NCBI RefSeq assembly: GCF_947495325.1
Contig: NZ_CANLYK010000003.1
Coordinates: 62,001 to 126,000 of the forward strand
Source: an uncultured Allomuricauda sp.
Lineage (GTDB): Bacteria; Bacteroidota; Bacteroidia; Flavobacteriales; Flavobacteriaceae
Length of the DNA stretch: 64,000 nt
Reading direction: 5' to 3'
Position numbers and translations under genes: made by a program. The notes under the pieces are model-generated. The model saw only the letters and a list, made by a program, of their open reading frames with translations. It made no database searches and was not told where the DNA came from. Shown here in pieces: positions 94-59,773 of the stretch. Every line of letters starts with the position of its first letter. Within the stretch, counting starts at the first letter, position 1.

Positions 94-1002
94 TCAATGT
101 TCAACCTGTAATTCATAAATTTTCACCTTGGCAAATGCTCCTTCATCCCTTGTCTGAAAATAGTTTCCTGCTTTGAAGTAATTTTCAAACACACCCCATC
201 TTCTAATACTTGCATCGTCGTATACAGCGAATTCATTTTTATTCAAAGACACTACCATTTTGCCATTGGTAACCTTAACTTCTATATAAAATTTTCCAAA
301 TCCTACTTCCTCCTCAAACGTATGACCCTTATCATCACCCCATGCTTCCTCATGTAATATTCCTTCTTGGGTGGCCGCTAGAGATTTAAGTACTTTTGTC
401 TTGACCCGAATTTTGCCCTTATCCCAGTAAATTTTCAAAATTGGAGGTGCATTATTGTCCTTTTGCCCTATCAAGTCTCGTTGCTCATTGGTCAGTCTAC
501 CATGAATCTGCAAAATAATAACTTTATGATATTTTCCATTCTTGTCCCTAGACACTTCATCCATGGCCATTTTGGCTTTTAAAACACCACCTTGGGCAAA
601 TGTCCAGTTTACATTATCATCTCCTGGAACCATCTGCTCCCGCAATTCTGACCTAGAATATTTTGTATTAGCCGTTGTGGCGTCACTTGGATAGGCATAA
701 AAAACCAATGCTCCAGAAACAGAGTCATTGTACATAAATGGCTTCAATGTTTCATTCGTTGCATAATCCAAAATCTCCGGTGGTTCCACACTCACAGCTC
801 CACCTTTTCCTTTTCCTTCAGGAATGGTAACTTTCCAGTGGGATAAATCAATGTCAGGAAGCCTTAACTTCTTCTTCTTTTTGTGTTTTTCAATTTTTGT
901 CTTCGACTCTGCAACGCTACTTTTCTTTTTTTGAGAAGTAGCGTTAACAGATAGAAAAATTAGTATAGCAAATACCAATAAGTCTTTTCGAAGTTTTTTC
1001 AT
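94..1002 (-). CDS. Alginate lyase, polysaccharide lyase family 7 (PL7)
   Basis: Cleaves alginate by beta-elimination, giving unsaturated oligosaccharides. All three PL7 signatures are visible: RSELRE (about 117-122), QIH (165-167) and YFKAGNYFQ (275-283), which contain the catalytic His/Tyr and substrate-binding Arg of the family. The N-terminus is a signal peptide ending near NATSQ, with no lipobox cysteine, so the enzyme is probably secreted or periplasmic. A very lysine-rich linker (about 25-47, KHKKKKKLRL) joins it to the single catalytic domain; no CBM is present. It is the last gene of the susC-susD-lipoprotein-lipoprotein-PL7 unit, 11 bp after the previous gene. Substrate preference (M, G or MG; endo or exo) cannot be read from the motifs. 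The family call is secure. Confidence 0.93.
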   Translation of the reverse strand: MKKLRKDLLVFAILIFLSVNATSQKKKSSVAESKTKIEKHKKKKKLRLPDIDLSHWKVTIPEGKGKGGAVSVEPPEILDYATNETLKPFMYNDSVSGALVFYAYPSDATTANTKYSRSELREQMVPGDDNVNWTFAQGGVLKAKMAMDEVSRDKNGKYHKVIILQIHGRLTNEQRDLIGQKDNNAPPILKIYWDKGKIRVKTKVLKSLAATQEGILHEEAWGDDKGHTFEEEVGFGKFYIEVKVTNGKMVVSLNKNEFAVYDDASIRRWGVFENYFKAGNYFQTRDEGAFAKVKIYELQVEH

Positions 1003-1013
1003 TAAAATTAAAA

Positions 1014-2462
1014 TTATTGGGCAATAACCTTTACATTATCTATATAGGCATCTTTTGGCGTAACCGCATAAAACATTACGGCAACCTCACCACTATCAGG
1101 AGCGGTAAATGGTATTTGAACCAATGTTCCAAAATCATCTGTAGTATCCGAGAATTTACCTTCTGCAATAAACCCTTCATGAAAACCTAAATTATCTCCA
1201 ATATTATCAACGGCATCTGCCCCATCATCATAATGTTCGCCTAGTATTAAACCTACTACATTTCTTCCTCCTATTGGATCGGTTCCGCTATCATCTTTGA
1301 TAGCATATTGATACTCTAAGACATAATTAGCGCCAGGAGTTAGAATAAGTTCTTGATATGCATATCTGGAACTTGAAGATCTTAATTCTCCTCCAGATTG
1401 ACTTGAAGACCACTTGGCCCCTCTTGTTTTGCCTCCAGTATCATTTCCATCGATATCAAAATCAGAACCATCAGAACTTGATCCAAAAGGATTAGTGTCA
1501 CCATCTGTAAATGTTTGCCATTTCCAGAAATCCTGATTATCCTCAAAATCACCATTTATAATGGTTGAACCAGTAGTTCTAGGCATGTAAATATTATCAA
1601 CTGTTATAGTAGCATGATCATTTGCAGTTCCAGTAGCACCCAATTCAAAGATAATTGAATCAAACTGAGAAACTGGAGATGAGAAATCAGAGGCTAAATC
1701 AAGATCAAAGCTAGTCCATTCTCCATCTGTTAAATCTAAATCGTCGATTTCATGGTTTACCGTATTAGTTCCGTCTACCAATGTTATTTTCAATTTATCG
1801 ATACCCGTTGCAAAATCCGAATAAACATCAAAATGAATAACCTCAGCTCCAACACCACTGTAAAATGCATCAGCAACAACCACTTCATCACTCAATTCAA
1901 CTACTCCTGTTTCACTATGTAGTCGTGAAAATTCCAGTAAGGTATTTCCAGAATCTTGTATTACTTCCTTACCCCCTGATCCATCTGCACCAATCGGAAA
2001 ACTGGAATCGGTATAAATATTAAAAATATTATACTGCTTAGCTGTTGGCGAATCTGCGGCCGTTTCTATAGATTCTACTGTATGATCTACGGTTATATCT
2101 TGCGTTTTAACGATATCCGCATAACCATCGGCCTTTGTTGTTACCGTTATCGTATAGTCTGCCGACTCTTCCACGTTAGAATAATCATGGATAGTACTCT
2201 CTCCTTGTACTGTGGTAACGGGATTACTTCCGTCACCAAAATCCACAACATAGGTATCAACACCAACCGTTAGAGGTGATACAGTTATAATTGTACCATC
2301 TCCACTTGCCTCCGCTGAAAAACTGGAAAACACAGCGGTTGTAGAACTGTCTGCACCTGACGAAACCTCTGGAGCCACTCGTGTAAACTCATCCTCTTCA
2401 TCACATGCTATTATAAGCCCAATTACCAAAAGAGCTCCTATTCCTTTTTTTATTAAATTCAT
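1014..2462 (-). CDS. PKD-domain surface glycan-binding lipoprotein (SusE/F position)
   Basis: A putative outer-membrane lipoprotein that should bind alginate for the adjacent SusCD transporter. I start it at the internal ATG giving MNLIKKGIGALLVIGLIIAC, a clean lipoprotein signal, rather than 21 codons upstream as in the ORF track. After the lipobox cysteine the protein is acidic (DEEDE). A PKD-like domain follows (about 40-130, with VVDFGDGSNPVTTV), then a beta-sandwich domain (about 145-300) and a C-terminal CBM-like domain (about 305-482, ending DAYIDNVKVIAQ). No catalytic signature is visible. Position between susD and PL7 in the same unit supports a binding role; alginate as ligand is inferred from neighbours only. 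Confidence 0.8.
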   Translation of the reverse strand: MNLIKKGIGALLVIGLIIACDEEDEFTRVAPEVSSGADSSTTAVFSSFSAEASGDGTIITVSPLTVGVDTYVVDFGDGSNPVTTVQGESTIHDYSNVEESADYTITVTTKADGYADIVKTQDITVDHTVESIETAADSPTAKQYNIFNIYTDSSFPIGADGSGGKEVIQDSGNTLLEFSRLHSETGVVELSDEVVVADAFYSGVGAEVIHFDVYSDFATGIDKLKITLVDGTNTVNHEIDDLDLTDGEWTSFDLDLASDFSSPVSQFDSIIFELGATGTANDHATITVDNIYMPRTTGSTIINGDFEDNQDFWKWQTFTDGDTNPFGSSSDGSDFDIDGNDTGGKTRGAKWSSSQSGGELRSSSSRYAYQELILTPGANYVLEYQYAIKDDSGTDPIGGRNVVGLILGEHYDDGADAVDNIGDNLGFHEGFIAEGKFSDTTDDFGTLVQIPFTAPDSGEVAVMFYAVTPKDAYIDNVKVIAQ

Positions 2463-2552
2463 AATCTTATTTATTTGTTTGTTTATCTCTGTCAAAGTCT
2501 GTTTTACTTTATAAAGCATAAACATTATACTTATCAGATATGTTACTAGAGA

Positions 2553-3359
2553 TTAATCAATTCTTTCTATACTTATCTTAGAATATCTACATTCAGTACC
2601 ATCGTATTCAATATTGAATCGCATGTTCTCCGTATTTTCTCCAGTTGCAAACCTAACCGAATACTCTTCATATGCTGAGGCAGAGGAGGATAGTGGGATG
2701 TCTTCACTTAAAAAGTCTTCACCTGTATCCCCATCTTCAATTAAGAGTTGTCCAGCAGAACTACCCGTGCTTTTACTCACATACCAAAAAACTATCTCAT
2801 ACTGCGCATCAGCTACCACACGAATAGTTTGATCAAGAAATTGGGAAGAGCTACTAATTTTAGCTCCTCCATTACCTTCTGGTGGTGATGGATCAGAACT
2901 ACCTGAATACGTACTTGTACCTCTACCACCACCCCATGGTGTTCTTGGATCGCATAAAAAGTCTGGACATTCAAAAGCAGCTACTAATTCATCAACAACT
3001 TCAACGTCTAGGGTAATTGTAGATATTTCACCATTACTATCAGAGGCTGTTAAGGTAACAGGGAAAATACCTTCACCTTCAAAAGTGTGTGATGGATCTC
3101 TTTCTGTTGAAGTAACTCCTCCTCCAAAATCCCATAGATAAGTATTGGCTTCCGAAGAAAGATCAGTGAAGTATAGTATTGTGAAATCATCTTGATCGGC
3201 AGTATAATCAAAATTTGCCTCCGGAAATACAGTATCTGCTTTAGAACCTGTATCCGGCAAATCATCTCTAAAAAGATCAGTGCCAACACAACTAACAGCA
3301 AAAATAGCTATCATGAGCACCAACGTTATTTTTCGGAAAAATTTTACTTGATTTTTCAT
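2553..3359 (-). CDS. PKD-domain lipoprotein, putative alginate-binding surface protein
   Basis: A 268-residue lipoprotein: MKNQVKFFRKITLVLMIAIF is followed by AVSC, a lipobox. A PKD domain occupies about 45-125 (YLWDFGGGVTSTERDPSHTF). A second beta-rich region (about 135-268) is Gly/Ser-rich and resembles the C-terminal CBM-like part of the next gene in the unit (SSSQ...Y.I.FWY versus SSSR...Y.LEYQY), suggesting related binding modules. It sits 18 bp after susD, the usual place of a surface glycan-binding protein. No enzymatic motif is seen. The 90 bp between it and the next gene hold no recognisable signal. Confidence 0.78.
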   Translation of the reverse strand: MKNQVKFFRKITLVLMIAIFAVSCVGTDLFRDDLPDTGSKADTVFPEANFDYTADQDDFTILYFTDLSSEANTYLWDFGGGVTSTERDPSHTFEGEGIFPVTLTASDSNGEISTITLDVEVVDELVAAFECPDFLCDPRTPWGGGRGTSTYSGSSDPSPPEGNGGAKISSSSQFLDQTIRVVADAQYEIVFWYVSKSTGSSAGQLLIEDGDTGEDFLSEDIPLSSSASAYEEYSVRFATGENTENMRFNIEYDGTECRYSKISIERID

Positions 3360-3377
3360 AGTTTAAATTTTTGAGTA

Positions 3378-4841
3378 TTAATATCCTGGATTTTGAGTTA
3401 GAAGGCCTCCACTAATGTTAATTTCACTGGCAGGTATTGGTAACAATAATTTTCTGGCATCAAAGACATAATCCATTTCGATTGCGTGTGCACTTAGTAC
3501 TGCATCTGCAACGCCAAACCTTAACAGGTCAAACCAACGTTGGTTTTCAAAAGCAAGTTCTACTCTTCTTTCCAACAAAAGATCATCTTGAGTAATTGAA
3601 GTTACAGTATCAGTTAAACCAGCTCTGTCTCTTACCATTTGAAAAGAAGCTAGTGCTGCAGTATCATTGGTAGACGCTCCCCCAGCCATAATGGCCTCGA
3701 CATGCATTAACAATACATCGGCATATCGTAAAGCAATGTAATCGTTACCTGCATCACGTCCCGCCCCATATGTTGGCGGTACCGTGGTTATATCGGATCC
3801 TTCTGGCAAAAACTTAATTACCTCATTTGACAAACCAAAGGTAACATAAGAAAGCGCTGTTCTATCTCCACCTGCTGCTGCAAAATCTACAATAAGATTA
3901 TCATTAACTATATTTTGACCATCTTCTGCACCAACACGTGTGGATGAAGTAAATTCAGCTGAAAAACCTTGGCTTTCCAACTGGTTACCGGAAATATATT
4001 GAATAGCAAATATGACTTCACTATTTGCAGATGCATCATATTCCTCCTCGGTCCCTGAATAAAATACGTCATTAAAATCAGGCTCTAAAGAGAAATTTCC
4101 ACTATTAACTATGTCTTCGCATAACTGCCGTGCACCGGTATAGTTAGGATTATCCTGAGTAAGATATACCTTTGCCAAAATACCTTGTGCAGCCGCTCTA
4201 GAAGCTCTTATTACATTTGAATTATCCAAAACACTTATTGCCTCTTGCAAATCTGCAATGATTTGAGCATAAATCTCTGACTCGGGCGTTCTAATAAATG
4301 GTGTCTCTTTATCATCTGGTGATACTACTTCTGTAACCAGAGGCACATCACTAAATAAGCGAACCAGTTTGAAGTACGCATAAGCTCTTAAAAATTTAGC
4401 TTCTGCAGTATATCTTGCTTGATTACCAGTATCTGCAATATCAATAAAGTTCAAAACATTGTTTGCTCTAAAAATAACCTCGTACATAGAAGCGTAGTAA
4501 TCCTCAACTTCTACGTTGTTAGCATTAACAAGATAACGGTGAAAATCAGCCTTTGAGCCTTCTGTGGTAGCGTTTCTTGTATTATCGGTTCTATGTTCTG
4601 TTAGAAGGTGCTCAAATTGCACTCCCCTATTTGTCGTTGCTTCATTTGAATTTGTAGCATCATTTACACCTTGAATGGCATCATAAATCCCCATAAGTCC
4701 AGAAAACACGTCAGCATCCGTTTGAAAGAATGAATCTACAGTAACTACAGAGTCTGGAACTGGGTTTAAAAATTCTTCTGTATCACAGGAGAGAAAAAGA
4801 GACCCTGTGAAAGCAAAAATTAGATATTTTATATTTTTCAT
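3378..4841 (-). CDS. susD: SusD-like nutrient-binding outer-membrane lipoprotein (alginate locus)
   Basis: The surface lid protein that works with SusC to capture oligosaccharides. The signal peptide MKNIKYLIFAFTGSLFLSC has a lipobox, followed by FLNPVPDSVVTVDSFFQTD, typical of the SusD N-terminus. TPR-like helices follow (RAYAYFKLVRLFSDVPLV), and the C-terminus LLTQNPGY is the common SusD ending. Length (487) is normal. It follows susC by 21 bp. Alginate as ligand is inferred from the flanking PL6, PL7, PL17 and kdgF genes. Confidence 0.95.
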   Translation of the reverse strand: MKNIKYLIFAFTGSLFLSCDTEEFLNPVPDSVVTVDSFFQTDADVFSGLMGIYDAIQGVNDATNSNEATTNRGVQFEHLLTEHRTDNTRNATTEGSKADFHRYLVNANNVEVEDYYASMYEVIFRANNVLNFIDIADTGNQARYTAEAKFLRAYAYFKLVRLFSDVPLVTEVVSPDDKETPFIRTPESEIYAQIIADLQEAISVLDNSNVIRASRAAAQGILAKVYLTQDNPNYTGARQLCEDIVNSGNFSLEPDFNDVFYSGTEEEYDASANSEVIFAIQYISGNQLESQGFSAEFTSSTRVGAEDGQNIVNDNLIVDFAAAGGDRTALSYVTFGLSNEVIKFLPEGSDITTVPPTYGAGRDAGNDYIALRYADVLLMHVEAIMAGGASTNDTAALASFQMVRDRAGLTDTVTSITQDDLLLERRVELAFENQRWFDLLRFGVADAVLSAHAIEMDYVFDARKLLLPIPASEINISGGLLTQNPGY

Positions 4842-4862
4842 AATATATTTTCTTTACTAAAA

Positions 4863-7800
4863 TTAAAAGTCAATGTTCAAACCAAGTGTAACCGTTCTAA
4901 ATATTGGTGTACCCGCTCTTTGGGATCCAAAAGCCCTTACATTACCATTATCATCATGCTCTGGATTAAAACCGTGATAATCATCAGCAGTGATGTAAAT
5001 CAAATTCTGGCCAGTAACATAAAGTCTTACTCCATTCAATCCAATACGTGATACGACATCTTTTGAAAAGTTATACCCTACGTTTACGTTACGTAGAGAA
5101 AAATAGTCTGAGCTTGCTATTACATCACTGGTCACAACTTTTCTTTGAATGAAGGACACATCGGGGACAAGACCAGCTGCTACAGCCTCCTCAGCACCTG
5201 TGCCTCTAGTCGTATTACCAAACCAGTTAAAGAAATACTCATCTCCAATATTATTTACTTGACCACCTAACTGACCTTGTACCATAAAAGAAATGTCGAA
5301 GTCGCCAATTTTAAATTCGTTCGTGAAACTGTAGATCAAATCAGGATAAGGATCTCCTAAAATGGTTTTATCCTCTTCAGTAATTAAGCCGTCACCATTT
5401 AAATCTTTTACAATTGTTGCCCTTGACTCTCCATTTATTCTGTTCCAGGGACTGTCAACATACGTTGTTCTAAAAGAAGTTTCATCAAAAAGCTCTTCAT
5501 CAACAACAAAACCCCAGTAAGATGAGATAGGTTCACCTATTCGGTTTATCCATTGTGAATTTCTACCATAAGTATCTGAGATCAAAGCATTGTTAGAATC
5601 ACCAAAACTCAACAATTCATTTTGGTTAGTAGAAGCTATGAATGTAGAATTCCATCTGAAATTTTCAGTAACAATGTTCCTAGTTCTTAATTCAAATTCC
5701 AAACCTCGGTTCTGAACTTCTCCTAAGTTTACAATACCCTGGTTAAATCCAGTTAGATATGAAACAGGATTGTTCAAAAGCAGCTCATCACTGTTTCTTT
5801 GATAATAATCAATTGAACCTGAAATTCTATTCCCTGCAAATCCATAGTCCAAACCTATGGTTAGTTCTTTGGAAGCCTCCCATTGTAGATCGGGATTCGC
5901 AATATTAAGTGGAGAAGCACCTTGAGTTACACCATAGTTGGTATTTTGATTTAAGGCCAGGTAAGGCCATGCATTTGTTAGCGCATTTCCAACGTTAAAG
6001 TTCTCCGAACCTGTAAGTCCATAACTAGCTCTAAACTTTAAATTGCTTATCCAATCGGTATTAACCAAGAAATTTTCTTTGGCAACATTCCAACCAACTG
6101 ATACTGCAGGGAAATTACCCCACTTTGAATCAACACCAAAAACCGAACTACCATCTCGTCTAAAAGATGCATTGAATAAGTACTTATCTGCAAAGGCATA
6201 ATTAACTCGTGCAAAAAAACCTAGTTTGCTACGATTTGTGTTAAATTCAGTTACAATAGTATTTTCTGGATCGGCCCCATTCATGTTCTTAAGCCTATCA
6301 TCCGTAAATCCACTACCTGTGATTGTGCTAAACTCAGATCTTCTTTTCTGAATTGTTGCACCTGCCAATAAATTAAGGTCATGCTTCCCAAAATTCTTAC
6401 TATAATTTAAAGTGTTATCACTGATTAATCTTGTTCGATATCTATTATTTAAAGTATACTGTGACCTACTATCACCAGATTGATGATAATTTGTACCATC
6501 CCATCTTGTTTGTTTTCTTTGATCTATAGTTACACCCAAAGATGTTTTTGCCGTTAGACCATCGATAATTTCATAACTTAAGTATGTGGAACCATATAGT
6601 TTGGTATTAAAATCGTAATGCTCTCTCTCCACATATTGTTGGTACGGGTTTGAGTCACCTGATGTACGAGGTCTGGCATCACTTCCATTCCCATCTAAAT
6701 CCAGTTCAACCAAATGATCTTCCCAAAAGTAATCTCCGACACCAACATTTGGGTATACATCTCGATTAATAAACTGCAATGATTCTTCTGTATGGTAAAT
6801 AGGCAACCAAGGTGATTGACGAATTGGATTATGAATCGACGTTGGCAAACGTCTTTGCTTTGTGTAAGAAGGAGTCACACTAACACCAAACTTAATTTTT
6901 TCGCCAATTTTTGAATTGACCTTTAAATTACCTGTATACAATTTATAATCGTCAGTAATTACAACACCTTCATCATGCAGGTATCTCAAAGATGTACTGA
7001 AACTTGTATCCTCTGTTCCCCCTCTTGCTGAAAGTGAGTGACTGGTAACATTACCTCCATCAAAGAAAACATCTTGCCAATCTCTATTTACTCCTGTTGT
7101 CGCTACTAAAAGCTTTATATATTCCGATTCTTCCGAGAGTGTCCCCGTAACTGATTGCTCCAACGCCAACCATTCATCAATATTTTTTTTGTAATCCTCA
7201 CTGCCATGTGCTTGCTTAAATCCTGTGTAGGTTTGGTAGCTAAATTTTGTTTTCCCTGCTTTACCACTTTTAGTAGTAATTAAAATAACCCCATTTGCAC
7301 CTTCACTACCATAAATAGCAGCCGAGGCAGCATCCTTTAAAACTTCAAAAGACTCTACATCGTTCATATCAAGATTTCCTAGAAAATCTGAACTTACAAC
7401 AATACCGTCAACCACTAATGCCGGACCTGAATCCGCTGCAATTGACCCAACACCTCTAATGGTAATAGTGGGTGCCCCACCTGCTTCAGCATTGGTAGCT
7501 TGAATGTTTACACCGGATACCTGTCCGATAAGGGCGTCATCCACCCTAGATACTGCAATCTGATCTAAAGTTTCATTCACTACCTTGGAAATAGACCCAG
7601 TAACCGTCGATTTTTTCTGGGTACCATACCCAACGACAACCACTTCATCCAGTTCGCTAAGATCTTCAGCCATAACAATGTTTACCGTGGTCTGGCCGTT
7701 TACGATAACTTGTTGTGTAGCATAACCAATGTAGGAGAAAACCAAAACGTCTCCATTGCTTACCTGAATCGTGTAGTTACCATCAAAATCTGTTTGAGTT

Positions 7801-7955
7801 CCCCTGGTTGTGTCAAAAACAACCACGTTCGCCCCGGGAATCGGGACATTGTTCTCATCTGATACATTACCCGACAGACTATAGTTGTCCTGGGCAAATA
7901 ATTGAATATTGATCGACAATATTGCAATTAAAATTAGTTTTAATTTTAAATTCAT
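4863..7955 (-). CDS. susC: SusC/RagA-type TonB-dependent transporter (alginate locus)
   Basis: Imports alginate oligosaccharides through the outer membrane, energised by TonB. After the signal peptide (MNLKLKLILIAILSINIQLFAQ) comes a carboxypeptidase-D regulatory-like domain (SLSGNVSDENNVPIPGANVV). Next are the TonB-box region, DEVVVVGYGTQKK, the plug domain (about 110-230, ending GVILITTKSGKAG) and a beta-barrel ending GLNIDF with terminal Phe. The ORF track starts 7 codons earlier at a TTG; the ATG at 7955 fits the signal peptide. It opens the unit transcribed from the operator-containing promoter at about 8233-8275, leaving a leader of about 300 nt. Confidence 0.95.
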   Translation of the reverse strand: MNLKLKLILIAILSINIQLFAQDNYSLSGNVSDENNVPIPGANVVVFDTTRGTQTDFDGNYTIQVSNGDVLVFSYIGYATQQVIVNGQTTVNIVMAEDLSELDEVVVVGYGTQKKSTVTGSISKVVNETLDQIAVSRVDDALIGQVSGVNIQATNAEAGGAPTITIRGVGSIAADSGPALVVDGIVVSSDFLGNLDMNDVESFEVLKDAASAAIYGSEGANGVILITTKSGKAGKTKFSYQTYTGFKQAHGSEDYKKNIDEWLALEQSVTGTLSEESEYIKLLVATTGVNRDWQDVFFDGGNVTSHSLSARGGTEDTSFSTSLRYLHDEGVVITDDYKLYTGNLKVNSKIGEKIKFGVSVTPSYTKQRRLPTSIHNPIRQSPWLPIYHTEESLQFINRDVYPNVGVGDYFWEDHLVELDLDGNGSDARPRTSGDSNPYQQYVEREHYDFNTKLYGSTYLSYEIIDGLTAKTSLGVTIDQRKQTRWDGTNYHQSGDSRSQYTLNNRYRTRLISDNTLNYSKNFGKHDLNLLAGATIQKRRSEFSTITGSGFTDDRLKNMNGADPENTIVTEFNTNRSKLGFFARVNYAFADKYLFNASFRRDGSSVFGVDSKWGNFPAVSVGWNVAKENFLVNTDWISNLKFRASYGLTGSENFNVGNALTNAWPYLALNQNTNYGVTQGASPLNIANPDLQWEASKELTIGLDYGFAGNRISGSIDYYQRNSDELLLNNPVSYLTGFNQGIVNLGEVQNRGLEFELRTRNIVTENFRWNSTFIASTNQNELLSFGDSNNALISDTYGRNSQWINRIGEPISSYWGFVVDEELFDETSFRTTYVDSPWNRINGESRATIVKDLNGDGLITEEDKTILGDPYPDLIYSFTNEFKIGDFDISFMVQGQLGGQVNNIGDEYFFNWFGNTTRGTGAEEAVAAGLVPDVSFIQRKVVTSDVIASSDYFSLRNVNVGYNFSKDVVSRIGLNGVRLYVTGQNLIYITADDYHGFNPEHDDNGNVRAFGSQRAGTPIFRTVTLGLNIDF

Positions 7956-8159
7956 TAGATATTTAGTTAATTTCAAAAAAAGTTGAGTTAATTAATCCTT
8001 ACTGTTGAGCATTCCGGCAAGAATAATTTTCTTTACTGTTCTACATTTTCATTAGGATTCTTAAAACACAATCTAAAATTTGCCTTCCACTTTTTAAATC
8101 TCTTAAAAACATAATAAAAATGTTAAGGTTAGTGCTTACTTCAAAAAGAAGTAAATTTT

Positions 8160-8187
8160 AAGAGGACAATAGTAAACTTATCCTCTT
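8160..8187 (-). other. Hairpin in the susC leader
   Basis: AAGAGGA (8160-8166) pairs with TCCTCTT (8181-8187) around a 14-base loop. If the promoter at 8268-8275 is real, this stem lies in the 5' leader of the susC mRNA, roughly 75-100 nt from the start site. It could be a partial attenuator or a folding element. The rest of 7956-8388 is AT-rich, without an ORF or other recognisable element besides the operator array and the kdgF terminator. Confidence 0.35.
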
Positions 8188-8232
8188 TTCATTTAATCAT
8201 GGTTCCATAGTTTTAGTTTGTTAATTTCTTTT

Positions 8233-8275
8233 TTGGTAATCCAATCTGGTTTACCAATTTGGTTTACCAAATATA
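8233..8275 (-). promoter_or_regulatory. Triple operator array plus -7 box for the alginate susC unit
   Basis: Three 12-bp units lie in register at 13-bp spacing: TTGGTAATCCAA (8233-8244, degenerate), CTGGTTTACCAA (8246-8257) and TTGGTTTACCAA (8259-8270). Each is a near-perfect inverted repeat TTGGT-NN-ACCAA, as bound by FadR-type GntR regulators. Read on the minus strand, the last unit overlaps TATATTTG (8268-8275), an exact match to the Bacteroidota -7 consensus TAnnTTTG. The operators then lie over and just downstream of the -7 box, which suits a repressor. The upstream -33 region is only T-rich. The same 33-bp block recurs at 13347-13379 with 31 of 33 identical bases. Confidence 0.72.
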
Positions 8276-8352
8276 TGTTATCTAAAAGTTAAATAAAAAC
8301 TTAATTTGGATTTAAATGTTAAAATTTTAAGACTAGACACAGTTTTGTGCCC

Positions 8353-8390
8353 AAAAAACACCAAGTATTTATTTTTATAGGTGCTTTTTT
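8353..8390 (-). terminator. Intrinsic terminator of the PL6-PL17-kdgF unit
   Basis: On the minus strand AAAAAAGCACC pairs with GGTGTTTTTT (one bulged G), followed by the T-run. The 5' arm overlaps the kdgF stop codon. It would end the upstream operon before the separate susC promoter. Confidence 0.6.
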
Positions 8391-8742
8391 ATCGGTTTTG
8401 CATGAAGTCTTCGCGGATTGGGCTAAAAACATCAATTAAAAACCCAGCTTCAAGGCATAGAGCACCGTGCATTACATGCGGAGGTATGTAGAAAGAATCC
8501 CCAGCATTAAGTATTTTGGTTTCGTCCCCAATAGTCAGTTTAAAGGAACCACTTACCACATAAGTTACTTGGGAATGATGGTGTTCGTGCATAACACCAA
8601 TTGCCCCTTTGGCAAATTTTACATTTACCAACATTATCTTGTCATCATATCCCATAATTTGTCTTTCAAGACCTTCACCTACTGTTTCCCATGGGATTTC
8701 ACTTCCTATTAAAAACTCCTTACTTGATCCAAAACTTTCCAT
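8389..8742 (-). CDS. kdgF: KdgF, cupin enzyme for unsaturated uronate linearisation
   Basis: KdgF converts 4,5-unsaturated monouronates released by lyases into the linear ketouronate (DEH in the alginate pathway). The 117-residue single cupin carries the KdgF metal site: HEHHHSQ (His52, His54, Gln58) and His92 in PPHVMHG. It also has the family-specific C-terminal catalytic triplet DVFSPIR (Asp104, Phe106, Arg110), which separates KdgF from generic cupins. No signal peptide is present, so it is cytoplasmic. It lies 4 bp after the PL17 gene, matching its role on the PL17 product. This is a confident assignment from motif spacing and context. Confidence 0.9.
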   Translation of the reverse strand: MESFGSSKEFLIGSEIPWETVGEGLERQIMGYDDKIMLVNVKFAKGAIGVMHEHHHSQVTYVVSGSFKLTIGDETKILNAGDSFYIPPHVMHGALCLEAGFLIDVFSPIREDFMQNR

Positions 8743-8746
8743 AAAA

Positions 8747-10990
8747 TTATTTTTTTAGTTGGCCAAAATAGTATGGCCCTGTCCAATTATATATGTTATT
8801 TTCAATTTCCAATTCGTGCTTCTGTTCTTTTAAAGTATTTACGTTTGATACAATAAGTAATTTTGTATTTCCTTTCTCACTTTCGATTTCCACAGCTGTA
8901 AAATCCATAGTATCAATTACAACCTGAAGCGCTGCAACACTGCTAGAGGCATTTACGGCAAACTCCGAAACCGGACTATATGACCCATGGGACTCGATAA
9001 TGGATACAAAAACAGTATTTGATATGTCCTTTCTTCTCACAATCAAGGCAGGATCCCTTCTTAAATTAAAGCTGGGGTCATTTGCCCCAATTCTGGCGAA
9101 TAGTAATTCATCCTGAAGATTTGCGGCTACGGTTAGACTATAAAACTTTTGATTGTTGAGCCAGGACAACTTTGTGTTCTTTGATTTTGGTTGCCCCTTT
9201 CCTTCCAGCCATAAATGTTGATATCCATTTGCTGCCCCTATTTGACCCAAGGTTTTGGGTGCCTCGTAATCAAAGTTCACTTCCATAACCTGTCCCAGAA
9301 AATAAAAGGGAAGGTCATATTGATTACTGGTTTCGGAACTCACCTTCAATATATCCAATATATAAGGTTTCTCATAGTCGCTATCCGTGATTAAGGCAAA
9401 TGTTCTGTGCAGTTCAGTCCCTGGATAAGCATTCTTTTCCTTTGCGCTAATAAGTTGTAGATTTTTATCTGAGGCATCAAAAAAATGTAAAACTGAATGG
9501 TTCTTACTTCCTATTTCATACTTTCCTTGAAAATGTGAGGTCTCATTTTGAACCAAAGTATTATGGGCTATTGTCTGCTTTGCCCAAGTGGTATTCTCCT
9601 TTAGATAATTTCCACCACCTTTCTGTTCAATATTGACAAATCTGGCCAATCCATAATCTTGAAGGACTTCATCTCCTTTTTCAAATACAGAAAATGAGAG
9701 TTTGTCATAGTGACCATGGCTCAATCCCTGTGCAGCATATTTAAAGACCAACTCCATATCATTTTTTCTCAAAATACCTATTCCACCTTCTGTCCCATCA
9801 GAACCATCCAATAAATTGACTGTTTTTTTGAGAAATGGCTCTGACTTGCCTTCTTTTATTCCTATAGCGATGGACAAGCCTGCATCATTCAATACTACTC
9901 TATCTTGCTTTTCTGCAATACTCAATAATTGAGCATTTTCACCTCCAAAATGATATGCAATATCAACCGCCGTGACCAATTCCCTAGAATAATAGGACAT
10001 TCCTTTTTGGCCATCATTTATTGGAAAGAATTCACCATTGGCATCAGTAAGGTTGAGTAAGGTCTCTACACTCTTTAATAAAACCCCATCATTATATTCA
10101 AATATTTTCAATTCTGGCTTAGCATTGTGCAATGCCTGTCCAAAAATTAAAAAGGGATACATAGCGTAGCGTTGATAATAAGGCCCCTCTGTATAGTATC
10201 CATCAGGAGAGAATGGTTCATCCAAATTGCCAAAAAAACCAATCTTCTGATCCTTAGTCTTAATAAAGCCCCCATCATTGTCTTTCATGTCCTCTGAAAG
10301 GTTATCCACTTTTAAACCATATAAGGCGCGGTTCAACAATTGGTCATCATCCATCACCAAGGCAATCATACCTACTGCCACATTGCCCCAAGTACTATGA
10401 TTATGAACACGATTAAAAAACTGTGGATTGCCTTTTGAAATGAAATCTGCAAAAGGTTTGAACAAGTCTTTTTCCAATTTCTTTCGCTCATTTTTTGAGA
10501 GCCAATCATAGATGCAATCGTAAGCTTGACTTGTGTACACCAACCAATTGGAATCATTCAAGCACTGCCAAAACAATTTGCCCCGCGCATAAGACCGCTC
10601 TTTTGGGTGCACTGGAAGTGTGGGGTACATTTCTGCATAGGACATCAACACATCCCTAACATAGACTGCATACTTTTCGTCATCCAATATTTGAAAGAGC
10701 ACTCCCGCTTTTTGAAGTATTAAAAAGTTTTTTTTATGCCGTTCATGCGTATACCCTCCAGAATAATCCTTGGGAATGGGCATATGAATCCCAGTCGCAA
10801 TTTCGGCATCAACTTCATCTTTTATTTTAGACAATGATGCATCAAACAAAGGAACAGTCCCTAGTTTGGATCTAATAGCTTCAACTCCTTGTTTTGTAAG
10901 TATTAATTTGGGATGTTCCTGCGCCTGAATCAGGGTGTGAAAACAAAAAACAAAAAGCAAACAGAAAAAATGATAGGTCTTTCGATTCAT
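8747..10990 (-). CDS. Oligoalginate lyase, polysaccharide lyase family 17 (PL17)
   Basis: An exolytic lyase that trims alginate oligosaccharides to unsaturated monouronate. It has an N-terminal alginate-lyase (alpha/alpha) domain (about 25-360) and a C-terminal heparinase II/III-like beta domain. Family residues are visible: Asn-His in RVHNHSTWGN (about 197-198), the tyrosine-rich DGYYTEGPYYQRYA (about 263-276) and the His of LSHGHYDKLSF. The signal peptide MNRKTYHFFCLLFVFCFHTLIQAQ lacks a lipobox, so it is probably periplasmic. I use the ATG at 10990; the ORF track starts five codons upstream at another ATG touching the PL6 stop. Length is normal for PL17. It follows PL6 and precedes kdgF in one unit. 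Confidence 0.93.
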   Translation of the reverse strand: MNRKTYHFFCLLFVFCFHTLIQAQEHPKLILTKQGVEAIRSKLGTVPLFDASLSKIKDEVDAEIATGIHMPIPKDYSGGYTHERHKKNFLILQKAGVLFQILDDEKYAVYVRDVLMSYAEMYPTLPVHPKERSYARGKLFWQCLNDSNWLVYTSQAYDCIYDWLSKNERKKLEKDLFKPFADFISKGNPQFFNRVHNHSTWGNVAVGMIALVMDDDQLLNRALYGLKVDNLSEDMKDNDGGFIKTKDQKIGFFGNLDEPFSPDGYYTEGPYYQRYAMYPFLIFGQALHNAKPELKIFEYNDGVLLKSVETLLNLTDANGEFFPINDGQKGMSYYSRELVTAVDIAYHFGGENAQLLSIAEKQDRVVLNDAGLSIAIGIKEGKSEPFLKKTVNLLDGSDGTEGGIGILRKNDMELVFKYAAQGLSHGHYDKLSFSVFEKGDEVLQDYGLARFVNIEQKGGGNYLKENTTWAKQTIAHNTLVQNETSHFQGKYEIGSKNHSVLHFFDASDKNLQLISAKEKNAYPGTELHRTFALITDSDYEKPYILDILKVSSETSNQYDLPFYFLGQVMEVNFDYEAPKTLGQIGAANGYQHLWLEGKGQPKSKNTKLSWLNNQKFYSLTVAANLQDELLFARIGANDPSFNLRRDPALIVRRKDISNTVFVSIIESHGSYSPVSEFAVNASSSVAALQVVIDTMDFTAVEIESEKGNTKLLIVSNVNTLKEQKHELEIENNIYNWTGPYYFGQLKK

Positions 10991-11005
10991 AATTAGCGCA
11001 TCCAT

Positions 11006-13339
11006 TTAATTAGAGATCACCCCTAAGTTACTCCCATCTGTTGCCTTACCTATCAAAGCTGAATTCGATTTTAAGGTATAGCTGGCCTCAGAATCAAATG
11101 CCGGAGGTAAAGACCAGGAATTCCTGACCGTGTACTTTTCATCTCCTGTTACATTGATACTGGCGCCATTAAAGAAATTGTTGTTCAATATATTGACAAT
11201 GGGTTCCCCCACAACCAAATGCATTCCAACACCTTTACTCACATTGAAAATATTATTTTTTATATCGATTACCTGAACCCCATAAAGTGAAACAGATGCA
11301 TTGTACTTGTTTCTTTTGTCATGCCCAACATTATCGAATACACAATGATCCATTTCCAAAAATGGTCCAAAAGTACTTTCATCCTTTCCTCCTCTATGTA
11401 ATCGTAAAGCAGCTCCCCCCACATCTGAAAAAATATTGTTCTTCATAATAACATATTCTGCATTATAAATTCCTATATCATCAGTTTCCTTGTCCAAGGC
11501 GATTACATTTCCAGAAATCATTTTGAATTTTGAGTTTTTGATACTGATGGTGTCCGCAAAAGTGTTTTTGTAGACCCGAATCGCATCATAGGAGTGGTTC
11601 ACATCCAAATTAGTAAACTCACAATCCTCTATGAACAATTTGTAATTTTTGTTCATAGAGTACTTGCTTGTTGTAATCACAGAATTACCTGTTCTATCCG
11701 GAGATTCTGCACCATCAAAAATAAGATCTTCTAATGATAGGCTACCTCCATTGCTAATTTCAAACAGTGATTTCTTTTCAAAAAGGATAGTGGGTTTTTC
11801 GGTGTTTTTGGATTTTATAGTTAATGGATGACCAACCGCTAGGGTTTTGGTCTGAGTGTATGTTCCGTTTTCCAATTCCAAGATATCTCCTGGTTTTGAG
11901 TTTTTTGCCGCATCGAACAAGGTATTCAAGCCTGGGGATACTACTATGGTTTTTCCGGATGATAGTTCCACATCAATATCGTCCTTTGGATACCAACTTA
12001 CTCCTGTATTTTCTTTTGTTGCCAACTTATCGCTCAGTACCGCTCCTTGATTACCTTCCAAATTTTGAGGGATGGGCAATCCGTATTCATTTTTGGCAAA
12101 TTCAATGGTTTTGGACGAAAAACCACTTTCCGTAATTGGGTTAATATTTGAACTTAAAAGATTATCCTTAAAATTGATACCACTTATATCATCATATACC
12201 GTAAAAACATCATTTTTGTCCTGATTGTAAAAAATATTGTTGGTCATAGATGAGTTGATGGGAACAGCACTTCTTTCGGAATCGCTTCCTGCACATAATT
12301 GAATATGGTCACAATCTATAAATGTATTGTTGTGGATTTCGGCATCCTCAACCTGAAAATACCTGTTTAATGGCGAATTTGGCACACCGTTCATCACCAC
12401 AAAAGCCCCACGGAAACGATATCCCTTCAAACCAATTCCGTAGTTATTCCTAACTGTTTGATGGCCGTTAATAACCCGAATGCCTCCTGTACTGGGTTTA
12501 TTGTTACCTATAAAAACATTGCCTTCAACCAAGGTTTCATTTCCATGTCTCATAGTCAATGTTCCCGTACATTCATAGAAAACATTGTTTCGATATACAT
12601 TATTATACGATTTATTGGAAATAATCTCGTGCTCTCCGTTACATCGGTCAAAGTAATTAGATTCTACGACAGTCATGGAATTCACCAACGAATAGTGACT
12701 TGTTCCTATCCGAAGTGTTTCGCCCCCATTTGAACCCAAATTGGGCCTATGTCCAAAATAATTATAATCTATTCTATTGTTGTTCTCCTCACTTTCCTTG
12801 GTATTTAACCTAACAATCATGGTTACCCCCCTATTGCCCTTGCCTACCAAATGGTTATGGTCCACACGATTATTATTCCCGTAAATGGCTACCCAAGTGT
12901 CAGGTTCATGACGTTCGGGATTATTGTAGCGATCAATTACACATTCAGTAACCCTACTATGGTTTGCCAATGTATTCTTATCTTTTTTAAAGGAAATTAC
13001 TTCTGTGGTAGGTGTAAAACCATTTTTAAAAACCAATCCCTCGACAACCAAATAACTTCCAGCCAATCTTAAATTAGAATTTCCTTGCAATGTCACTTTA
13101 CCTTTTTCCTCAACAGTAAGTGTAATGGGATTATCCTCAGTACCATTTCCTTCAAATAGAAGCTCTGCATTTTCCCATACACCATTTGCCAGCTTAATTA
13201 CATCTCCAGGTTGCGCATTAGAAACTGCCTCGTTAAATTCATCAACGGAATTAATTAGTCTCGAAGATGTATTGGACTGATTGCAAGACGCTAATAGAAT
13301 GAAAAAAAGGCATAAAAAAAGCTTCCTTGAAATGTTCAT
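11006..13339 (-). CDS. Alginate lyase, polysaccharide lyase family 6 (PL6), two-domain lipoprotein
   Basis: A parallel beta-helix lyase related to chondroitinase B. The signal peptide MNISRKLFLCLFFILLASC has a lipobox, so it is membrane-anchored. The first helix domain (about 28-430) begins INSVDEFNEAVSNAQPGDVI and carries the PL6 catalytic pair: Lys243 in SNKS and Arg264 in TMRHGN. A second beta-helix domain (about 455-777) begins with a similar repeat (NTLFDAAKNSKPGDILELENG), as in the two-domain AlyGC-type subfamily. It is the first gene of the PL6-PL17-kdgF unit, starting only 8 bp from the twin operator. Substrate bias among M, G and MG blocks is not readable. Confidence 0.93.
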   Translation of the reverse strand: MNISRKLFLCLFFILLASCNQSNTSSRLINSVDEFNEAVSNAQPGDVIKLANGVWENAELLFEGNGTEDNPITLTVEEKGKVTLQGNSNLRLAGSYLVVEGLVFKNGFTPTTEVISFKKDKNTLANHSRVTECVIDRYNNPERHEPDTWVAIYGNNNRVDHNHLVGKGNRGVTMIVRLNTKESEENNNRIDYNYFGHRPNLGSNGGETLRIGTSHYSLVNSMTVVESNYFDRCNGEHEIISNKSYNNVYRNNVFYECTGTLTMRHGNETLVEGNVFIGNNKPSTGGIRVINGHQTVRNNYGIGLKGYRFRGAFVVMNGVPNSPLNRYFQVEDAEIHNNTFIDCDHIQLCAGSDSERSAVPINSSMTNNIFYNQDKNDVFTVYDDISGINFKDNLLSSNINPITESGFSSKTIEFAKNEYGLPIPQNLEGNQGAVLSDKLATKENTGVSWYPKDDIDVELSSGKTIVVSPGLNTLFDAAKNSKPGDILELENGTYTQTKTLAVGHPLTIKSKNTEKPTILFEKKSLFEISNGGSLSLEDLIFDGAESPDRTGNSVITTSKYSMNKNYKLFIEDCEFTNLDVNHSYDAIRVYKNTFADTISIKNSKFKMISGNVIALDKETDDIGIYNAEYVIMKNNIFSDVGGAALRLHRGGKDESTFGPFLEMDHCVFDNVGHDKRNKYNASVSLYGVQVIDIKNNIFNVSKGVGMHLVVGEPIVNILNNNFFNGASINVTGDEKYTVRNSWSLPPAFDSEASYTLKSNSALIGKATDGSNLGVISN

Positions 13340-13346
13340 TTAAAAA

Positions 13347-13376
13347 TTGGTTTACCAAATTGGTTTACCAAATATA
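13347..13376 (-). promoter_or_regulatory. Twin operator and -7 box of the PL6 promoter
   Basis: Two perfect TTGGTTTACCAA units (13347-13358 and 13360-13371) form a 13-bp tandem. On the minus strand the distal unit overlaps TATATTTG (13369-13376), matching TAnnTTTG, and TTTTG (13396-13400 read on minus) lies 19 bp further upstream as a fitting -33 element. The operators thus cover the -7 edge and the expected start site. The block matches 8246-8278 at 31 of 33 positions. The same DNA lies upstream of the divergent RraA-like gene and could control it as well. Confidence 0.75.
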
Positions 13377-13378
13377 TG

Positions 13379-13386
13379 TATATTTA
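13379..13386 (+). promoter_or_regulatory. Possible -7 box for the divergent RraA-like gene
   Basis: TATATTTA differs from TAnnTTTG only in the last base and lies 51 bp before the ATG at 13438. The operator half-site TTGG at 13360-13363 is near where a -33 element would be, so a regulator on the twin operator could affect both directions. The assignment is weak because the region is AT-rich. Confidence 0.3.
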
Positions 13387-13437
13387 CGACATTCACAAAA
13401 ATATCACTGACAAACGACCAAAATAACATATATCGGC

Positions 13438-14157
13438 ATGAAAAATTACCAAGAATCCATTATTGAAAAATTAACCCAGGTAAGCACAGCTACCATCGCA
13501 ACATGTCTGTTTAAAAAAGGGTTAAAAAATCAGTTTATACAAAAAGTCCGTCCATTAAAATCCCGAAACAAAACCATGGTAGGACTCGCCTATACCTTGC
13601 GTTATATTCCGGCCCGTGAGGATTTGAATCCGATTGAAGTTTTTAGAGATCCCAAACACCTGCAAAGAGTTGCCGTGGAGGAATGTCCGGAAAACCATGT
13701 AATGGTCATTGATAGTAGGAAGAATTCGAGAGCGGCATCTGCAGGCTCCATTTTAGTGACCCGACTTATGAAAAGGGGTGCGGCAGGTATTGTAACCGAT
13801 GGTGGTTTTAGGGATTCAGCAGAAATTGCAGAACTCGATTTTGCATCCTATCATGTTACACCATCCGCTCCCACTAATTTAACACTTCACCAAGCCATTT
13901 CCATTAACGAACCCATTGGTTGTGGTGATGTTGCTGTTTTTCCTGGAGATTATATTGTAGGAGACAATGATGGGGTAATGGTAATTCCTCAAAACATTGC
14001 AGAAGTTGTTGCCAATGAATGCCTTCAAATGACATTGTACGAGGAATTTGTGATGGAAAAAGTTGAAAATGGAACCGCAATCATTGGATTATATCCGTTA
14101 ACCAACGATACATTCAAAACTGAGTTTGAAGCCTGGAAAATTTCAAAGAAAAACTGA
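13438..14157 (+). CDS. RraA/HMG-aldolase family protein linked to the alginate locus
   Basis: A cytoplasmic 239-residue protein of the RraA-like fold, the family of 4-hydroxy-4-methyl-2-oxoglutarate aldolase and oxaloacetate decarboxylase. The core reads GAAGIVTDGGFRDSAEI (115-131). It includes the Arg125-Asp126 pair that in the aldolases binds substrate and the metal-coordinating water, followed by Glu129. Where I expect an acidic residue about 21 positions earlier in several aldolases, this protein has Ser104 (AGSILVT). It diverges from PL6 with the twin operator between them. Class II pyruvate aldolases split 2-oxo-4-hydroxy acids, and KDG and DEH have that pattern, so a role in alginate monomer breakdown is a plausible inference, not shown. 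It is unlikely to be a true RNase E inhibitor. Confidence 0.8.
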   Translation: MKNYQESIIEKLTQVSTATIATCLFKKGLKNQFIQKVRPLKSRNKTMVGLAYTLRYIPAREDLNPIEVFRDPKHLQRVAVEECPENHVMVIDSRKNSRAASAGSILVTRLMKRGAAGIVTDGGFRDSAEIAELDFASYHVTPSAPTNLTLHQAISINEPIGCGDVAVFPGDYIVGDNDGVMVIPQNIAEVVANECLQMTLYEEFVMEKVENGTAIIGLYPLTNDTFKTEFEAWKISKKN

Positions 14158-58231: not shown

Positions 58232-59773
58232 TTATGATCTTTGGTAGTCATAAAAAGTTCTGGACATTTTTTCCAGTTTTTGCTTGATTACTGGTTTACT
58301 GACAGATGAAAAACCCATTACCAATCCTTTTTCCTTTTCGTTTCTCAAAAAGTACTTGCTATATGGAAAAGATACAATTCCCGCATCCATCAATACCTTG
58401 GTAATCTCAATATCATTCATTTCAGCCGGAAGTCTGGCCATAAGATGAAGGCCTTGGTTGGCAGGTTGAATTTTTATGTTTTTGTCAAAAAGATTTTGAA
58501 ACTGATCTACAAAAAATAGCTTACGCTCATTAACAACTTGAATGACTTTTCTTAAATGCTGATTAATATAGTCCTTCTCAATAAAATCTGACATGACCTT
58601 TTGGGTAACCGGAGAGATAAATCGAAAGGATTGTTCAAACATGGCTTTAATGCTATCCACAAAATGTGGAGGTGCAATTAAATACCCCAATCTTATTGAA
58701 GGATGCAAGATTTTATTAAACGTTCCCTGATAAAAAACCCGATGCCCCTTATCCAAACCAAATATGGAGGTAATTGGACTTTCCCAGTTGCTAAATTCAT
58801 TATCATAATCGTCTTCAATAATCATCATCTTATTTTCCTTGGCCCAATCCAAAAGTTCCAATCTCCTTTTTAAACTCATTTGAACACCCGTGGGATATTG
58901 ATTTGAAGGGGTAGTATAAATCAACTTCCCTTTCTTAAGTTTAACTTTATCCAAGCTTGATATTGATAGTCCTTCTGAATCGATTTGAGTTGGAATAACC
59001 CTAGCTTTCAAACTTTTAAAAACAGCAAGCGCATTTGCATATGTAGGGTTTTCAACAACTACTTCATCGTCTGCATTTATAAGTAAATCCCCTATAATGG
59101 ATAGGGAATGTAATGAGCCCGTAACTATGATAATCTGGGAATAATCGCATTGTATATTCCTGTAGAGTTTTAAATAATCCGCTATATTTTTTCTTAAACA
59201 GTCTAAACCAAGTGTATGCTTATAGGACATATCGGAATATTTGATATCCCTCCAATAGTTATTGGTCAACTTTTGCCATTGTCTTACCGGAAAGACATCT
59301 AAAGGTGGCAAACCTGGTCTAAAAGCAATGCCCCGCTCATGCCCTCTGTTCATTAAGGTGACATTGGCACTAAATTGAGTTGCCCTTTCTGAAATATCGG
59401 GGTACTTCGTTACTTCCTTTTGGGTTCTTAGACTATACTTTATTTTCTTGTTCCTTATATCATTTACATAAAATCCAGAACCCTGCACTGAATAAACGTA
59501 ATTTTCCAAACACAATATTTCATAGGCCTTCACTACCGTGCTTCGCGATAAGCCCATATCCTGGGCGAGCAATCGGGTTGGGGGTAACTGATATCCTTGC
59601 ACCAGTTTTTTTTTGTTGATGGCGTTTATGAAGGAGTTTGACAGTTTCACATAGAGACTTTGTCCCCCTTCCGTTGAACTAAAGCCATGTGAAATAAGTA
59701 AGCTGTTAAGTTTGGTCTTCAAAATTGAAACGCTGTAAAAAATAAAATTGGTATGGGAAAGGTAGAAAAACAT
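58232..59773 (-). CDS. MocR/PdxR-type transcriptional regulator (GntR-aminotransferase fusion)
   Basis: A winged-helix GntR domain (about 40-105, LPPTRLLAQDMGLSRSTVVKAYEIL) is fused to a class-I aminotransferase-like domain (about 150-505). The latter includes TTPSNQYPTGVQMSLKRR, IIEDDYDNEF and the PLP-lysine segment YQGTFNKILHPSIRLGYL. Such proteins use PLP or an amino-acid adduct as effector. The first 30 residues are hydrophobic and unusual, so translation may start later at a non-ATG codon. It diverges from the aminotransferase gene with a 212-bp shared region and most likely controls that unit. The 177 bp between it and the kinase gene hold nothing recognisable. Confidence 0.92.
   Translation of the reverse strand: MFFYLSHTNFIFYSVSILKTKLNSLLISHGFSSTEGGQSLYVKLSNSFINAINKKKLVQGYQLPPTRLLAQDMGLSRSTVVKAYEILCLENYVYSVQGSGFYVNDIRNKKIKYSLRTQKEVTKYPDISERATQFSANVTLMNRGHERGIAFRPGLPPLDVFPVRQWQKLTNNYWRDIKYSDMSYKHTLGLDCLRKNIADYLKLYRNIQCDYSQIIIVTGSLHSLSIIGDLLINADDEVVVENPTYANALAVFKSLKARVIPTQIDSEGLSISSLDKVKLKKGKLIYTTPSNQYPTGVQMSLKRRLELLDWAKENKMMIIEDDYDNEFSNWESPITSIFGLDKGHRVFYQGTFNKILHPSIRLGYLIAPPHFVDSIKAMFEQSFRFISPVTQKVMSDFIEKDYINQHLRKVIQVVNERKLFFVDQFQNLFDKNIKIQPANQGLHLMARLPAEMNDIEITKVLMDAGIVSFPYSKYFLRNEKEKGLVMGFSSVSKPVIKQKLEKMSRTFYDYQRS

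Follow-up and report, generated by a model that had tools for sequence, protein, structure and literature searches.

Probable AusR operators in tandem at the alginate promoters of an Allomuricauda genome and a candidate antisense RNA in susC leaders

Alginate genes, operator arrays and their likely regulator

The window, a 64,000-nucleotide stretch of the genome of an uncultured Allomuricauda species, contains two alginate transcription units on the minus strand, assigned from Pfam families. The first unit (8389-13339) is composed of genes for PL6 (11006-13339), PL17 (8747-11005) and a kdgF-like cupin (8389-8742), the PL numbers being deduced from the families. The second unit (94-7976) contains susC (4863-7976), susD (3378-4841) and genes for a PKD protein (2553-3359), an unknown protein (1014-2525) and PL7 (94-1002). 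An rraA-like gene on the plus strand (13438-14157) is divergent from PL6. Positions 14160-55626 are occupied by a large PUL with several GH92, GH20, GH3, GH95, GH130, alpha-L-fucosidase and sulfatase genes next to SusC/SusD, and its content suggests a sulfated N-glycan-like substrate. The MocR-type GntR/aminotransferase regulator encoded at 58232-59773 is unrelated to the operator described below.

A sequence-only reading of this DNA had proposed that a 33-bp promoter-operator cassette is repeated in front of both alginate units. The stretches 13347-13379 (TTGGTTTACCAAATTGGTTTACCAAATATATGT) and 8246-8278 (CTGGTTTACCAATTTGGTTTACCAAATATATGT) are indeed identical at 31 of 33 bases. The operator unit is a 12-bp palindrome, TTGGTNNACCAA, of the form TTGGT-NN-ACCAA with a 2-nt spacer. 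Two units on the minus strand (13347-13358 and 13360-13371), both exactly TTGGTTTACCAA, form a double operator with a 13-bp period in front of the PL6-PL17-kdgF unit, 7 bp from the PL6 start codon. The claim of two tandem units per place holds at this array (13347-13371) and falls short at susC, where the minus-strand units at 8246-8257 and 8259-8270 are joined by a third, in-register unit, TTGGTAATCCAA, at 8233-8244. The resulting triple operator (8233-8270) has the same 13-bp period. The double operator is also located upstream of the divergent rraA-like gene. Since a divergent rraA gene stands beside the same array in the loci of five relatives (L027, L035, L037, L065 and L093), the double array probably serves both directions, and with them the rraA-like gene.

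Both promoters carry the flavobacterial sigma-A -7 box TAnnTTTG, here TATATTTG, on the minus strand at 13369-13376 (PL6) and 8268-8275 (susC). As had been noticed before, the box overlaps the first, inner operator unit at both places. The -7 box spans positions -12 to -5 (PMC9723704), which places the predicted minus-strand start sites at about 13364 for PL6 and 8263 for susC, inside the first operator unit, and predicts repression by occlusion. Further upstream the two promoters differ. The PL6 promoter has a TTTG-type -33 element on the minus strand (13396-13399), 19 bp before the -7 box, and TTTG is found at this distance in 18 of 20 PL6/PL17 promoters of relatives. The susC promoter has TTTT at this place, as part of the element TTTT-N2-TTTAAC-N6-ATAACA (8276-8298, minus strand), which replaces the canonical -33 box. 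Both the TTTT and the TTTAAC-N6-ATAACA are conserved in the susC promoters of relatives, and a pattern search found the element in a single copy in this genome. It could bind a second factor or represent an unusual form of promoter. Because the -33 parts differ, what is shared as a cassette is the -7 box with its operators, and not the whole promoter.

A protein of 239 residues with a GntR domain (65 bits) and an FCD domain (84 bits), both above cut-off, is encoded at C3:61198-61917, between PL7 and MFS transporter genes. The earlier expectation of a FadR-type GntR gene is borne out in kind but not in place: it was sought elsewhere in the genome, and turns out to be part of this alginate locus, with 84 bp between it and the window. 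We refer to the protein as AusR, for reasons given below. A site with one mismatch, TTGGTTAACCAG, is positioned 19 bp before the ATG of its gene. The relatives of known structure, identified by sequence match, are GntR-family regulators including PdhR, NanR and FadR; the match to NanR of E. coli (PDB 6on4 and others) has a value of 2.8e-11. The D-x3-H, H and H residues of the FCD domain are conserved in 79 aligned sequences, consistent with an acid ligand. The genome contains a second, weaker FCD gene at C1:591312 (37 bits).

Specificity and conservation of the arrays

In pattern searches of the 4.1 Mb genome, the single 12-mer has 16 exact matches against 10 for a reversed control, and the 16-mer at two mismatches has 75 against 25. 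Such bare-motif counts are weak evidence; signal is told from chance only by a position between genes and by the tandem period. Eleven of the 16 exact sites are inside genes. The remaining five, outside coding sequence, all precede alginate genes: three are in the window, one is followed after 7 bp by the ATG of a distant gene for a PL7 alginate lyase (C1:691815), and one precedes genes for a TIM-barrel isomerase and a PL6 homologue (C3:349989). The circumstance that would have spoken against the operator, a motif frequent outside uronate genes, is thus not what the genome-wide search found. The last of these sites belongs to a second alginate operon (L123 5989-11645, from C3:349989 onward), which is composed of a perfect AusR-type site and genes for the isomerase (AP_endonuc_2), the PL6 homologue and a 774-residue protein.

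The 25-bp tandem with up to three mismatches occurs at six places in the genome and at none for the control, and the best three matches belong to the arrays of the window. The weaker matches at C1:304068, C2:823667 and C2:854321, which fall within open reading frames, were discarded. Shuffled loci of relatives, 0.77 Mb in all, yielded no array. Neither kdgA (C3:55294) nor kdgK has an upstream site at one mismatch or fewer, and the regulon therefore does not cover the whole pathway. A LacI-family gene adjoins the alginate SDR/MFS genes, with a kdgA cluster nearby (L024 1107-2138 and L121 6265-10489). As this cluster has no AusR-type site within one mismatch, another regulator is likely to act there.

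We examined 80 named loci around relatives of the regulator protein, with no Zobellia locus among them. At least one array is present in 74 of these loci; of the six that lack one, five are short contigs. Sites are spaced 13 bp apart in 128 pairs and 26 bp apart in 43; other distances of up to 60 bp account for two pairs only, and the control pattern gave none. So constant a period of 13 bp suggests that neighboring dimers are held in a constrained geometry, and adjacent AusR dimers may bind cooperatively. The TAnnTTTG box runs into the first unit at a constant offset in 71 of 72 susC promoters and 19 of 20 PL6/PL17 promoters, or 90 of 92 together. In a sample of 121 Flavobacteriaceae genomes, with AusR presence defined by E<=1e-40, arrays were found in all 28 genomes that encode AusR and in two of the 93 that do not (Fisher p 2e-25).

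Conserved hairpins in the susC leader

In relatives, a leader of 165-320 nt separates the array from the start of susC. The alignment of these leaders (L025-L104) contains two conserved hairpins behind the susC array. An mRNA attenuator was the first idea for their role, and was set aside on the strand-asymmetric pair changes. Imperfect pairs on the susC strand are A.C in 71 cells of the alignment and G.T in eight. An A.C on the sense strand corresponds to a G.U on the other strand, and the hairpins therefore point to an RNA antisense to susC. The antisense strand is paired at 97.1% and the sense strand at 91.2%. Read as antisense, the alignment has 18 cells with a double change, versus 5.4 in shuffles, the sequences being related and the cells thus not independent events. 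The second hairpin is followed on the antisense strand by a U-run, as in a terminator, which is longer than that on the sense strand. Of 70 leaders, 57 have a TAnnTTTG box for antisense transcription at a distance of 30-44 nt past the first hairpin, versus 13% in shuffles; a -33 box for this promoter was looked for in the leaders and not found. Together these features would outline a candidate small RNA of the relatives, antisense to susC and about 86-100 nt long.

It is also possible, if rather unlikely, that the hairpins work in the susC mRNA itself, either as an attenuator or by affecting its stability. They are located 20-80 nt into the predicted susC leader and keep 91% pairing on the sense strand, and L070, one of two relatives folded, folds slightly better in this orientation. 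The bias of imperfect pairs towards A.C, which reads as G.U on the opposite strand, argues against this role, as do the nearly complete pairing, the frequent TAnnTTTG box and the longer U-run, all of which favor the antisense strand.

A model was built from the hairpins only, with no operator sequence included and with the window copy among its training rows. Of 120 relatives, 20 have a strong match to it (E<2e-5), in each case about 200 bp or less from an operator array. The same search gave no strong match in genomes without AusR. Some of these genomes appear to be those of named loci from which the model was built, so that the test is not fully independent. Rfam contains nothing credible for the leader hairpins. 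We lean slightly towards the view that the alginate susC units of Flavobacteriaceae combine a fixed-phase AusR array on the start site with a conserved, previously undescribed antisense RNA directly behind it that would dampen susC. Strong matches to the RNA occur only beside AusR arrays. The RNA would be a possible second layer of control.

The window contains a degenerate copy of the two-hairpin element on the plus strand (8128-8189), antisense to the susC leader. This copy has lost the conserved loop and the TAnnTTTG promoter box, and may therefore be decaying here. Among the relatives, Flagellimonas aquimarina (L026) has an intact copy. Between PL7 and ausR of locus L024 (6010-6065) there is a further hairpin, GGACTATTG...CAATAGTCC, that has a 10-mer (complementary strand) in common with the loop of the antisense hairpin of the window. 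This 10-nt match was seen by eye and, given the many possible pairings, may be due to chance.

Probable control by AusR and comparison with known regulators

The repeats of the window are accounted for by AusR, a known system here seen in one more species. Each 12-bp palindrome would be the site of one AusR dimer, with sites two deep at the PL6-PL17-kdgF unit, three deep at the susC-to-PL7 unit and single elsewhere. Because the -7 box and the predicted start site share bases with the first unit, AusR bound to this unit is predicted to block RNA polymerase. Intermediates of alginate breakdown would release AusR, and both units, the distant PL7 gene and the isomerase-PL6 operon would be induced together, probably along with rraA and ausR. 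We consider this explanation as a whole, from stacked operators and start-site occlusion to release by intermediates and joint induction, to be highly probable, with the binding, repression, start sites and effector deduced from the DNA. The sequence-only reading had already coupled both units to one regulator and named AusR as the candidate; the position of the sites, their genome-wide specificity and the co-occurrence of arrays and regulator support both proposals. Its prediction of repression from the overlap of operator and -7 box gains support from the position of the sites and from the preservation of the overlap in relatives.

The arrays could instead be read by another regulator, such as the second FCD protein (37 bits) or the LacI-family protein encoded near the locus, with the GntR neighbor as a bystander. 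This is very improbable, as the arrays track relatives of AusR (28 of 28 genomes with, two of 93 without), the GntR gene has its own site and is part of the same locus in the named relatives, and the palindrome has the form known for the FadR subfamily. Least credible is that AusR acts here as an activator: the sign of control is not given by sequence alone, but in 90 of 92 promoters the first unit lies over the -7 box and the predicted start, a position from which a bound protein normally keeps the polymerase off, and AusR is a repressor in the account given in PMC8286568.

The AusR model is hereby extended from one species to a sequence rule: TTGGTNNACCAA with a 13-bp period and the first unit on the -7 box. 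By this rule, about one in four of the sampled Flavobacteriaceae genera would have an alginate regulon. What is added to the earlier observation is the rule on spacing, the test of co-occurrence and the candidate antisense RNA.

AusR of Zobellia galactanivorans (Dudek et al. 2020) is described in papers that cite the original work as a GntR-family repressor of alginate catabolism, with single, double and triple operators at alginate promoters and repression relieved by alginate intermediates (PMC7874173, PMC8286568, PMC8073546). As in that description, the alginate PUL of the Allomuricauda genome includes the gene for a GntR-family regulator, and the sites form a double (13347-13371), a triple (8233-8270) and singles at the distant PL7, the isomerase-PL6 operon and, with one mismatch, ausR. 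The host differs in being another member of the Flavobacteriaceae with its own gene content, including the PL6-PL17-kdgF unit and the divergent rraA-like gene. The likeness of the two systems is drawn from these descriptions; none of the papers found in the literature search gives the operator sequence of Z. galactanivorans.

Sites of the FadR subfamily are composed of TKGT and ACMA boxes, which in several groups, UxuR among them, are separated by 2 nt (PMC4494728). The sites described here share with such operators the TKGT/ACMA palindrome, the 2-nt spacer, a GntR and FCD regulator and a link to sugar-acid metabolism (PMC4494728). Unlike UxuR-type operators, they are arranged in 13-bp tandem arrays, and their host belongs to the Bacteroidota. 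The predicted AusR resembles NanR of E. coli in being an FCD-family repressor, but the effectors differ. NanR binds several tandem repeats at one promoter, which are direct hexamers, in contrast to the 12-bp palindromes of the arrays described here.

DonS-like antisense RNAs of Bacteroides PULs are 78-128 nt long, divergent to susC homologs, and repress them (PMC7366714, PMC11697453). The candidate small RNA would be similar in length and likewise antisense to and divergent from a susC homolog. It differs in belonging to alginate PULs of Flavobacteriaceae, in its hairpins, and in being mostly single-copy and always located beside AusR arrays. If the candidate RNA is expressed, marine alginate degraders would join gut Bacteroides in using DonS-like RNAs to control glycan uptake.
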